Assembly: GCA_023053545.1 (NCBI GenBank)
Contig: JAKZAN010000007.1
Location: 9,486,001 to 9,550,000, forward strand
Direction of reading: 5' to 3'
Length of the DNA stretch: 64,000 nucleotides
Source: Lepidurus packardi
Lineage: Eukaryota; Arthropoda; Branchiopoda; Notostraca; Triopsidae
Shown here: positions 44,460-62,532 of the stretch, in pieces
Layout: each line of letters opens with the position of its first letter
Position numbering within the stretch: position 1 is the stretch's first letter
Translations under genes and position numbers: made by a program
Notes under the pieces: model-generated
Seen by the model: the letters and a program-made list of their open reading frames with translations, nothing else
The model's database searches: none
Told to the model about the DNA's origin: nothing

Positions 44460-45695
<1,236 letters not shown>

Positions 45696-45778
45696 AATTC
45701 AGTTTATAAAGAAATATCCCAAGAACTTCCTCAAGTGTTAACGTTAGGAAATGAAGTTCACTTTTCGACAATACTAGG

Positions 45779-47344
45779 TCAAATTAGAGCCTTTTTTGCG
45801 CTAATTAAGGCATAACAACGCGGGGATTTCACGGGGTCAAAGAGTCGCACCAAAAATGCGCTTGCGTCGTTCTCCAAAAGGAACACCAAACGATCCAATA
45901 GTATCAAACCTTCAATAACTGGTGCCAGTAAGGTTCTGAGCTGGAAAAAGCACTGCAATTCCATCCGTCTATGACTATACATTGTTTCGTAGTGAATAAG
46001 CTCTTCTTCAGTTACCTAAACAGTGGCAAAGTAGATACATTGTGCCAGGTACTGTAGTTTCTTACCTTGGAGTCTAGTTTAAGGCGTTTTAAGGCTTTCT
46101 GAGCGTATTCAACAAAGTTAGCACAGGGTTTTTTCATTCTTCCTACCTGGACTTCCATTTCTTGCACGCAGAATTTATCAACCAACACAACCTGCAAGAG
46201 TGCGCGGTAGAAAAGTACTTCCACTTGTACCTGAAAGGAAATAAGACCATGAAAGACGTGAAGAAAGGGTTGAGCAAAGGTTTGGGAGTGGAAATTACCT
46301 TCTCTTCGGCTGCAAAACGTTCGATAGGTTGAACGCACATCATACGCGCATTTCTGCCAAGTGCAAAGCGTTGGTCTCTCAATTGTTGGCTCAGTGGAAA
46401 CCCGAAAGATTTGAAACCCGTTTTGCCATAAGGATCAGGGCAGAATTCTTCGTCGATTAAGTGGTAGCAGCAAGCGACATTGCTAAACGCTGCCAGATTC
46501 AGATTCGCAAGGAATAGCTTTAAGCACGTGGGCGCCAAATTCCCGCACGTGTGCAGCCCAACCAAGATGGCGGAACTTCCGCTTAACTTTGGGTAGTTTT
46601 TGTTTATTATTGGGTCTAGGTCCAAATCTTCGGTAACGTAATGAGTTACGCGCTGAAAAGATACTTTCTTGTGGTTATTCTCGGTGATTTCCTTGGCTCT
46701 TAATGAGTTGTACATTTTCTATATACAATAGCTAATCAAAAACCAAGTTATGTGGGAAGCCAACAGTGAATTACTTCTAGGTTCTCTCGCTTTTCAGACA
46801 CATGGCCCATACTGCCTTGCGCTTCTAGTCCCAAAACGGAGCAAGAATGACTCAAAGATAAAATGGTTCCTAAATGTCCTTTGCCACAACCAATATCTAA
46901 GACTATTCCACTTCCAGCAGCGTTAGCCAGATTGGCGATGACGTCACAGTAGATCGAGACTTCATGGGCTTTTTTAGGGCTCATAAAGACATCAAATTGG
47001 AATTCAGAACTTATAGGAGAGGAAATACCATAAGTTTGGTAGACGGCCTGAATTTCAGAGAGAACATTCAAGCCAGCTAAGGTATGCGCTCTTGTGTTGG
47101 ATACAAATTGGCCTAATTCGTTCCCAAGGTCGGAATTAGGGTTCAAAAGGTCTTTAGAAACGAGTTGAAGCTGGTTTGGTGTAAAAGAGGACAATTCGCG
47201 TTCAAGTTGGAGTGGAAGTAAGGTTTTGAAGTGGTTTTGAGTAAAAACATGGACCATATGGGCGTTTGCGATGGGTAGAATAGGTTTGACATAGCAAGTC
47301 AGCTTTTCTAATGCTGCTCGAGCAGTTTCAAGAGAAAGGGCCAT
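45779..47344 (-). CDS. METTL25B: methyltransferase-like protein METTL25B (RRNAD1) type
   Basis: Predicted SAM-dependent methyltransferase of the METTL25/METTL25B family; substrate not established. Four exons (47344-46775, 46718-46299, 46230-46066, 46015-45779) join in phase to 463 residues. Family marks: DVFMSPKKAHEVSIY, SAM motif I GIVLDIGCGKGHLG (about 145-158), VGLHTCGNLAPTCLKLF, NVACCYHLIDEEFCP, RNARMMCVQP, YRALLQVVLVDKF, and the C-terminal LAPVIEGLILLDRLVFLLE / LFDPVKSPR blocks. The start codon (context GAACCATGG, good) lies only 9 nt after the stop codon of LTO1 on the same strand and in the same frame, so it may be translated from a shared mRNA or have a promoter inside LTO1. METTL25B is preferred over METTL25 by general similarity only. 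Confidence 0.88.
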
Positions 47345-47353
47345 GGTTCTTGC

Positions 47354-47875
47354 TTAGAAAGATGTTTCTTTTTTGGCGGCGATGTCCGTTGCGACTTTTA
47401 GGAGTGCGCAGACGAGTTTGAATTTGGCACGGATTTGTTGTAGTTGTTCTAAGATGTCTTGTTCTTTGATATTGGATTGCGGAAAGGCGTCGATCATGCT
47501 CAGTAGCTTTTTCAGAGGCTTCTGGACTTTCTCCTTCGCTGTGGTAATGCTAACATCCTTTAGAACGACATTAGAATCTTTTATAAGAGAAGAAAGCTCC
47601 TCATCGGACGTTTCGAGGGAAATGTGATCTGATTTAGTGACAGAATCGCTGGCTGAAGAGAGAAATGCTGCAGCGAAGCCTTTATAGAAACCTAATTCGG
47701 ATCCAATTTCAGCCCCTTTAGAAAGGCCTAATGCTTCCCCTTCAGCAGAGCCTGAAAGTGTACCAGCTTCCACGCCTTCCTGAAATCCCTTTTGCCACGC
47801 AGTTTCTTCGCTAAGAAAAATGGCGTCGAAGGCAGCATCAACATCGACAGTATCTAACGATTTTTCTGCCTCCAT
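47354..47875 (-). CDS. LTO1: LTO1 (ORAOV1) Fe-S cluster adaptor subunit
   Basis: With YAE1, LTO1 forms the adaptor that brings the ABCE1/Rli1 ribosome-recycling factor to the cytosolic iron-sulphur targeting machinery. Single exon, 173 residues. The defining motif of spaced glycines is visible: FDAIFLSEETAWQKGFQEG then VEAGTLSGSAEGEALGLSKG and AEIGSELGFYKGFA (about residues 15-70), followed by QQIRAKFKLVCALL near the C-terminus. The acidic N-terminus MEAEKSLDTVDVDAAFD gives a convincing start. The insert between residues about 72 and 100 is longer than in human LTO1 (137 residues). Its TAA stop is followed by nine bases (three codons) and then the METTL25B ATG in frame. Confidence 0.9.
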   Translation of the reverse strand: MEAEKSLDTVDVDAAFDAIFLSEETAWQKGFQEGVEAGTLSGSAEGEALGLSKGAEIGSELGFYKGFAAAFLSSASDSVTKSDHISLETSDEELSSLIKDSNVVLKDVSITTAKEKVQKPLKKLLSMIDAFPQSNIKEQDILEQLQQIRAKFKLVCALLKVATDIAAKKETSF

Positions 47876-48530
47876 TAATCTACAATGAAGAATATATTAA
47901 AGAATTGCGACTAGAAAGTGTAAACAACTTGCCGGTATTTACTGGATCCTAAAAGAAGTTTACATATGGCCCACTAGGTGGAGCCGCTTGTTTCATTTGG
48001 CAACAAAAGCGCGTGGATAAACGCGCATACAACTCGATTTCGAACGCTTTTGAAGATTCTCAACTATGAGATTCTCAAAGATTCCCAACTACAATGTTTC
48101 AATGACAACCTATGCTCGCTACGGACCGCAAACGTCTTCCCAGTCACGTCCAGTAGTTGCGTCTTGAAGCCAGTATCAACCATCTTAATGGCGCTCAATT
48201 CAAACGTAGAAGTTTAAACAAAATTATATGGCTTCCGTCCTGTTTTCCAAAGCGTTTTTTAACTTCTTTTGCGTTTGTTATGTTTTGGTAGGACTTGGTC
48301 CAATTTAAGCTTCATATACATCTTAACGGTTTACTTCTTAGAACCCATTTAGAGCGGTCACTTATGTATTTATTTAGAGTGGTCTCATTTATTTAGAGCG
48401 GTCACTTACAGCTCTTAATATTTCTGCTTGTAGTCCTATTAATTTGAGAAAAAGATTACACGTGAATAATCCTGGACACAGTTTATTTTAATATTTATAA
48501 TATTTAGCTCTTATGAACACTTTCTTGTTT
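47876..48530. other. intergenic, LTO1 promoter / TRAPPC12 3' flank
   Basis: Upstream of LTO1 and downstream of TRAPPC12, both on the minus strand. A TTTAGAGCGGTCACTTA repeat occurs around 48350-48410. A 79-codon plus-strand frame (47978-48217) is not supported. Confidence 0.45.
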
Positions 48531-58561: not shown

Positions 58562-59784
58562 ATGCTGACGGGCAATATGAATTGGGTACGCTTGATTCTC
58601 CAAATCGTATGGTACTGGCCAGCACGTTTCACAGGATCTGATGCTGATGCATCATGGAACAACTTCGCTTCAAGTCCAGGGTACGCAAATAGCCGACTGC
58701 TGGTCCCAGGAAACCTCTGCCGGTCACGCTATCTTGAAAAGGGTAATTATATAGAAAATTACATAGAAAAATGCTCCATTATATAGAAAAATACCAGTAA
58801 ATTACCCATACGTTTGACAGGATCGTCATTTATCTGGGCAAGGATGGACTGCAGTCGATCTTGCGCCACCAACGATGCTTGTCTGGCTTTCAACTTCTAC
58901 GAAAACGAGATGCACTACATCTGCGAGTTGCTATCAGTCAATTTATGCCGAAACCAGAACGCCTTAATGTTAACTAATCAGCCGAGAGGCTCAGTGTGGG
59001 ACAAGTTAACTACTGGCATGAACACGTCGTGTTACGAGATGCTGCCTTGGACTGCGCTTGATTGCGAAGTTGCTCGACCAGGATGTCAGGGAATTGTACC
59101 CAACTGCGTGAATTGCACCAAAACCTGCACGGAATGGGCTGAACGTATTGGTTATTCACGTAACTTAATAAATTAGAAAGAAAATAGTAAATAATGTGTC
59201 CCGATGTAGCCAATGGTTACACTTTGTGGCCGGATGGAGATGCACCGACTTCGGTACCTATTACTGGCCAATGCTGCGACTTTGATATGACAGTTTTGAT
59301 ATCAAGAGCAATTAATCTAACAACTGGAGAAGACTCCAAGAACTACACAATGTCTTTCCAAGACATGCACCGCATTTTCAAGCTGAAAGCTTATTCCACT
59401 TTGACGTTTTATTTTGGAGGCACAATGTCTGGCTTTCAACGTAATAACAGGAGCAAGTACACCAATGCATTCATCGACGCGGACGGGACATTGACAAACT
59501 TGACCTATAAAGCTTCAGATAGTTCGGCACCGGATATTTTCAACTTGAAAGGTCTGGCAATGAAACCAACACCTTTTATCAAAGTCACAGATGATCGCTA
59601 CAGTTGTGGCTCGTTTTGGCTGCTTAACGTCACCAATCAAACTTTCTGCCCTGGCGGGTCTCTTAGCATGTTTGGTACCGTAAGGAAGAATGCTACCAAT
59701 GTAGTAAACACAGGAATTCACCTCCCGGGTGAAAAACCGAATGATAAAATAACTAGAGTAATGGTATTCCTTGTAAATGATTAG
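58562..59784 (+). CDS. secreted PAN/apple-like glycoprotein, copy 1
   Basis: I do not know a named family for the whole protein. Three exons (58562-58742, 58821-59159, 59210-59784) give 364 residues (359 if the second ATG, MNWVRLILQ, is used; that ATG is the one conserved in the sister genes). Residues about 6-25 form a hydrophobic, secretion-like signal. Exon 2 carries a Cys-rich region with MDCSRSCATNDACLAFNFYE, HYICELLSVNLC, resembling a PAN/apple fold (adhesion or carbohydrate binding), then CNCTKTC-like pairs. Exon 3 encodes a 190-residue domain with TLWPDGDAPTSVPITGQCC, MSFQDMHRIFKLKAY, FNLKGLAMKPTPFIKV and SCGSFWLLNVTNQTFCPGG, with many NxT/S glycosylation sites. Sister genes follow in tandem. 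No membrane anchor at the C-terminus. Confidence 0.8.
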
Positions 59785-61339: not shown

Positions 61340-62532
61340 ATGAATTTGGTACGTTTGATTTTCCAAACCGCATGGTACTGGACTGTGCTTTTCAAAAGAA
61401 TTGACGCTGATGCATCCTGGAACAACTTCGCTTCAAGTCCAGGGTACGCAAACAGCCGACTGGTAGTCCCAGGCAATCTTTTCACTCCGCGTTATATTCC
61501 AAAGGGTAAGCCCTTGCTCATTTTTGTTTTCTTATAGATAACAACCAGAAAATTACCCATAAAGTTGCTAGGATCGTCACTGATCTGGGCAAGGATGGAT
61601 TGCAGTCGATCTTGCGCCATAAACGATGCTTGCCAGGCTTTCAACTTTTACGAAAACGAAACGTTCTATCTATGCGAGTTGCTGTCAGTCAACTTATGCA
61701 GAAATGTGACTGCCTTGACATTAGCGAAGCAACCGGGAGGTTCAGTATGGGATAAGCTTACTAAAAGCATGAAGACTTCGTGCTTGGACACTGTGCCTAA
61801 CTTTGGTGCCCCTTGCGGGACTGTTCGACCAGGATGTCTGGGAACTATACCCAACTGCTATAACTGCACTAGGACTTGTATGGACTGTTATGCTCGAAAA
61901 GCCACAAGTAAAACAGTTTAAAAGATTAATTTCAATTCAATTATTCCCTATTTGATCCATTATTAACAGATAACTGCACCTTATGGCCAGATGGAGACGC
62001 AATGACTTCGGTACCCATTGCAGGTCTATGCATCAACTTGAATGAAACCTGTTTGATAAGGAGAAGAATTGATATAGCAAACAAGAAAGAAGCATCCGAT
62101 AATTATAGAATGAGCTTATATGACATGCATCGCATGATTAGGATTAAAGCTTATACTTTTTTACAAATTCTCTTCACAACTTCCTCGAGGGAATTGGGCA
62201 GCGTATACGCCTATCCTTTCATGGATGAGAACGGGACATTGTCAAACCTGACCTATCATCCCACAGGGTATTCGATAAGCGATATGTTCAATCTTGGCGG
62301 TCGGGCAATGAAGCCAACGCCGTTCGTAAATGTCACTGTTGACCTCTACAATTGTGGCTCATTTTGGCTTCTTGACTCTGCGAACGCCACCTCTTGCCCA
62401 GGCGGAACCCTTGGCATGTTTGGTTCGTTAAAGACAAATGCTACAACCGTACTAAGCACAGGAATGCGCCATCCCCTTACCACCCGTGGCGAACTAATCA
62501 ATTCTCTTTCTGTAACATTGATGCATTTTTGA
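61340..62532 (+). CDS. secreted PAN/apple-like glycoprotein, copy 2
   Basis: Paralog of the gene at 58562 with the same three-exon structure (61340-61505, 61572-61907, 61970-62532), 354 residues. Signal-like start MNLVRLIFQTAWYWTVLF; conserved DADASWNNFASSPGYANSRL; Cys-rich exon 2 (MDCSRSCAINDACQAFNFYE, YLCELLSVNLCRN, GSVWDKLT); C-terminal domain with WPDGDAMTSVPIAGLC, MSLYDMHRMIRIKAYTFL, FNLGGRAMKPTPFVNV, NCGSFWLLD, SCPGGTLGMFGS. The start chosen is the ATG shared by all three members. Divergence from copy 1 is spread over the protein while the cysteines stay, suggesting selection on the fold. Confidence 0.8.

Follow-up and report, generated by a model that had tools for sequence, protein, structure and literature searches.

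The window, by which we mean the whole 64-kb stretch of Lepidurus packardi DNA analysed here, carries two closely spaced genes on its minus strand. The upstream member of the pair is LTO1 (ORAOV1), a single-exon open reading frame (ORF) of 173 aa at positions 47354..47875. LTO1 is required to insert iron-sulphur clusters into ABCE1, the factor that recycles ribosomes at stop codons. The predicted protein matches the Pfam profile Yae1_N over its full length (1-39/39; E=8.9e-6), at 25.7 bits and thus slightly under the 27.5-bit cut-off, and has a visible G-x3 repeat, so that both deca-GX3 features are present. Its C-terminus reads ETSF, the last residue being a Phe, directly at the TAA, where either Trp or Phe was looked for. 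As far as the cited part of PMC4523923 goes, a C-terminal Trp is conserved on Lto1, with Phe in some organisms, and changing the terminal residue of the yeast protein to Ala strongly impairs binding of the CIA targeting complex and Rli1 maturation; the portion used of PMC10623007 is also relevant to the Lto1 C-terminus and CIA targeting.

The LTO1 start codon lies in a weak context (ATTA ATG G, with T at -3), and a possible 63-nt intron is predicted in the 5′ UTR (47880..47942, minus strand), its acceptor (attgtag, 4.2 bits) ending 4 nt before the ATG. The donor at 47942 (CCA/gtaaat, 8.3 bits) scores better than 45% of the donors of 80 reference introns; the acceptor at 47880 scores better than 7% of the acceptors in the same set and, when every AG in the window is considered, better than 92%. 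Farther upstream there is a better acceptor at 47949, paired with a donor at 48334 (8.8 bits). The next gene in that direction is a TPR gene, which we take to be TRAPPC12-like, 655 nt from LTO1 and with polyadenylation signals past its own stop (ATTAAA at 48492, AATAAA at 48393 and 48374).

The second gene of the pair is METTL25-like and comprises four exons, whose limits were set by hand. Exon 1 (46775..47344) opens with an ATG at 47344-47342 in the context AACCATGG; exon 2 (46299..46718), exon 3 (46066..46230) and exon 4 (45779..46015, ending in TGA) follow introns of 56, 68 and 50 nt, respectively, all on the minus strand. The spliced protein of 463 aa matches Methyltransf_32 with E=2.9e-22. 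The sequence-only reading had named this gene METTL25B. Among the eight Methyltransf_32 matches across the genome, two are exons of the window gene and another two belong to a single gene on a different contig (exons within C4:4375606-4376180), which looks METTL25B-like; a match at C4:5043814 looks like a second METTL25-like gene, and one on C3, inside a 631-aa frame, looks like GSTCD. The remaining two lie on C118 and C42, the latter match being bacterial-looking. The window protein contains RNARM and FDPVKSPRCYA, which we assume to be METTL25-type stretches. Inspection by eye found no METTL25B-type stretches in the window protein and similar ones in the C4:4375606-4376180 gene. The second gene is therefore probably METTL25 rather than METTL25B, a naming that rests on short diagnostic stretches in a genome with a second METTL25-like gene. 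METTL25 converges on a gene at about 44500-45611 (plus strand) that is presumably METTL18-like, the two stops being 167 nt apart; two methyltransferase genes thus stand end to end in the window.

Re-reading the junction between LTO1 and METTL25 bore out the geometry first described for it. The LTO1 stop codon (TAA, 47356-47354) is followed by a nine-base spacer, GCAAGAACC (47345..47353, minus strand), and then by the METTL25 ATG on the same strand and in the same frame, in a strong context with A at -3 and G at +4 (AACC ATG G). The description as one frame interrupted once also holds, the TAA being the sole interruption between the LTO1 ATG at 47875 and position 46775, where METTL25 exon 1 ends, as does the remark that nine bases leave no space for a promoter or a 3′ end between the genes. 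Sharing a frame is a one-in-three chance and is weightless by itself. The junction is single copy in the genome of 108,557,554 bases (108.6 Mb; one match, 501 bases, 100%), so the stop codon cannot be checked against another copy. An Rfam scan of the 64-kb window at gathering thresholds gave 0 matches, and searches of solved structures returned a sole match with E=5.7, evidently due to chance. Among the literature matches listed, judged partly by title, there was no report of an LTO1/METTL25 pair, which does not prove its absence.

A rough idea of how unusual such spacing is came from a mechanical scan of 264 kb, comprising the window and twenty 10-kb stretches taken from contig C1 alone. The scan flagged every coding-like ORF end with a further coding-like ORF of 80 codons or more whose ATG lies between -60 and +200 nt of the stop. 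At three thresholds, 66/371, 33/205 and 10/94 ORF ends were flagged; the LTO1 pair was flagged at the first two thresholds and not at the strictest, and a separate, stricter scan, which flagged 2/66 ends, missed it. When 13 other flagged pairs were read by eye, without profile searches, six had the look of intron read-through or antisense ORFs and seven stayed undecided; a recognisable pair of unrelated genes was seen in none of these 13. The nine-base spacing thus looks unusual in the sampled DNA, on a base rate that is rough; the gaps on either side of the pair, of 655 and 167 nt, are wider.

Signals for 3′ ends were searched on both sides of METTL25. Past the LTO1 stop, the first AATAAA lies at 46603..46608 (minus strand), inside METTL25 exon 2, and neither AATAAA nor ATTAAA occurs between that stop and 46608. 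If this signal were used, the LTO1 mRNA would end there and METTL25 would be truncated. In the 380 nt past its own stop, METTL25 likewise has neither hexamer and is followed by variant signals alone (TATAAA at 45708, ACTAAA at 45622, AGTAAA at 45401), which makes the missing signal after LTO1 weak evidence.

Splicing at the junction is a possibility that the sequence-only reading had left off its list. We scored it with an acceptor matrix built from 80 mechanically chosen introns, whose leave-one-out acceptor scores run from 1.8 to 14.8. These 80 are the top-ranked among 247 candidate introns that were picked by frame continuity and ranked with the same matrix, so the reference set is biased high; it includes the real intron 2 of METTL25 and two incorrect joins that start from the donors of introns 1 and 3. 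The junction has two AGs, one at 47353 with a score of -0.8 and one at 47349 with -5.6, both under all 80 reference acceptors. Among the other 167 candidates, 16 have scores lower than that of AG 47353 and none a score lower than that of AG 47349; with a matrix rebuilt from all 247, 3/247 score under AG 47353. Both junction AGs have an A at -3, as do 12/247 candidates. Hence AG 47353 is weak and AG 47349 very poor, and splicing at the junction appears unlikely; the argument is weakened by AG 47353 outscoring some lower-ranked candidates and coming near the intron-1 acceptor of METTL25 itself, which scores 0.6.

Judged from the sequence, the locus is a real, tightly packed pair, most likely partly co-transcribed. 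The explanation we favour, tentatively and at a little short of even confidence, is that a common promoter serves both genes, that two separate proteins are made and that at least some of the mRNA is dicistronic. The two genes, lying head to tail, would each yield their own protein, with transcription from the LTO1 promoter continuing through METTL25; a dicistronic mRNA is proposed because a gap of nine nucleotides can hold neither a promoter nor a 3′ end. LTO1 would be translated by ordinary scanning, and the same message would also yield some METTL25, most likely through termination-coupled reinitiation 9 nt past the LTO1 stop or, alternatively, by ribosomes that occasionally scan past the weak LTO1 start. 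We count in favour of this explanation the possible 5′-UTR intron leading into LTO1, the weak first versus strong second ATG and, as weak evidence, the missing AATAAA or ATTAAA ahead of METTL25 exon 2, signals that the upstream TPR gene does have past its stop.

Translation of METTL25 is the weakest step of this favoured explanation, since reinitiation after long ORFs is presumably rare and AUGs are not depleted in LTO1. Specifically, such reinitiation is presumed to be very rare in the part of PMC5972666 cited here. Inside LTO1, six AUGs follow the start codon, five of them out of frame. Counting the start codon, the total is seven, against the 7.3 (s.d. 0.98) that 5000 synonymous shuffles yield on average, which leaves leaky scanning without special support. 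Furthermore, once a dicistronic mRNA is spliced, its first exon junction in METTL25 would lie 579 nt beyond the LTO1 stop, a position from which we infer that the mRNA could be a target of nonsense-mediated decay.

Of the three options originally proposed for the junction, two are kept here, one message carrying both ORFs and transcription of METTL25 from within LTO1. The sequence alone fits both; we place the dicistronic mRNA slightly ahead. A transcription start within the LTO1 exon, which we regard as a serious contender and quite possibly correct, would produce overlapping monocistronic mRNAs, with the LTO1 mRNA ending inside METTL25. The strong METTL25 ATG context and the presumed rarity of long-ORF reinitiation (PMC5972666, in part) argue for it, as do the AATAAA available at 46608 and the report, in the portion of PMC4528330 used, of monocistronic transcripts for both genes at 45/159 Drosophila loci and for one gene at 69. 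Set against these points, such a start is putative, and METTL25 exon 1 would form the 3′ UTR of any LTO1 mRNA that ends near 46608. Stop-codon readthrough, the third option, is disfavoured. The frames are continuous across one stop, as an LTO1-METTL25 fusion would demand, but TAA followed by G is not known as a leaky stop context. Moreover, a fusion would bury the C-terminal Phe of LTO1 needed for the CIA targeting complex (PMC4523923, in part); because the free Phe would be lost, readthrough is unlikely as the main product, and we hold the fusion to be highly improbable.

The splice-site scores bear on two further explanations. In a trans-spliced operon, a spliced leader would be joined just before the METTL25 ATG and LTO1 would be polyadenylated around there. 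Trans-splicing and operons are known in several animal groups, in the literature as partly covered here, an acceptor-like site lies 4 nt before the LTO1 ATG, and AG 47353 is near the intron-1 acceptor in score and above 16/167 of the lower-ranked candidates. The fall of both junction AGs below the whole top-ranked reference set, of AG 47349 below all 247 candidates, and their uncommon A at -3 nevertheless make such an operon improbable. A search with the Rfam SL1 model against the L. packardi genome gave no match, but the controls likewise gave none, so this result is uninformative. The same junction AGs would have to serve if a leader exon were spliced past LTO1 directly to METTL25; good donors for this exist upstream (48334, 8.8 bits, and 47942, 8.3 bits), but the acceptor just before the METTL25 ATG is weak, and we think it quite improbable. 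Finally, the junction might act as a ribosome-recycling sensor, at which a shortfall of LTO1 or ABCE1 would let ribosomes left unrecycled at the LTO1 stop restart nine bases on, at METTL25, so that METTL25 output would rise as LTO1 function falls. In Rli1/ABCE1-depleted yeast, 80S reinitiation in 3′ UTRs beside stop codons is reported in the part of PMC5972666 used, with restart sites that are AUG-independent, which speaks against a precise restart at METTL25; we rate this idea a very long shot.

Under the favoured dicistronic explanation, the closest parallels are in Drosophila, for which PMC4528330, in the part cited, gives 159 annotated dicistronic pairs (FlyBase release 6.04); at 45 of these, both proteins seem to come from dicistronic transcripts only. 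Like LTO1-METTL25, these are unrelated genes, close together on the same strand, in a pancrustacean host, and mixed mono- and dicistronic transcripts are common among them; the LTO1-METTL25 message differs in being a predicted one. Green-algal bicistronic loci (PMC11892635, in part) similarly combine a short inter-ORF distance, a weak first start and a strong second one, and a reporter there used a 14-nt inter-ORF spacer; in the leaky-scanning loci described, however, AUGs are depleted in the first ORF, a depletion that LTO1 does not have. Trans-spliced operons of nematodes and other animals share the minimal intercistronic distance and differ in that the junction acceptor is weak here and no spliced leader is known for this genome. 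The LTO1-METTL25 arrangement is unusual, yet no new kind of system. If the mRNA is dicistronic, a conserved housekeeping pair would join the dicistronic mRNAs known to occur naturally in animals. Its spacer would be short enough for testing termination-coupled reinitiation and, as the LTO1 pathway equips the recycling factor itself, the pair would be a handy reporter for reinitiation. If METTL25 simply starts inside LTO1, the locus would be a case of ordinary packing in a compact genome.

Several observations were made elsewhere in the window and the genome. On the plus strand of the window, two similar ORFs at 59194-59784 and 62002-62532 have the look of a tandem family; a Pfam search with the former gave nothing up to E=0.1. 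Contig C42 has bacterial-looking neighbours by eye, and COX1 matches without internal stops lie on contigs C52, C214 and C43; the assembly seems to contain bacterial contigs. Mitochondrial COX1 has many nuclear copies or fragments, on C6, C1, C2, C4, C5, C21 and C38, with TGA read as a stop in most. The COX1 insertion at C6:697216-698424 contains eight TGA and one TAA in the standard code, and the surrounding C6:695716-699924 keeps the order ND2-like, trnC, trnY, COX1, trnL, COX2. In its metazoan-mitochondrial mode, ARAGORN called trnC, trnY and an overlapping trnS upstream of COX1 in this insertion and a trnL(taa) between COX1 and COX2. A trnL in this place is a marker of Pancrustacea, so that the host looks pancrustacean on the assumption that the insertion derives from the animal itself. 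A run of ARAGORN with the bacterial code had called no tRNA here.
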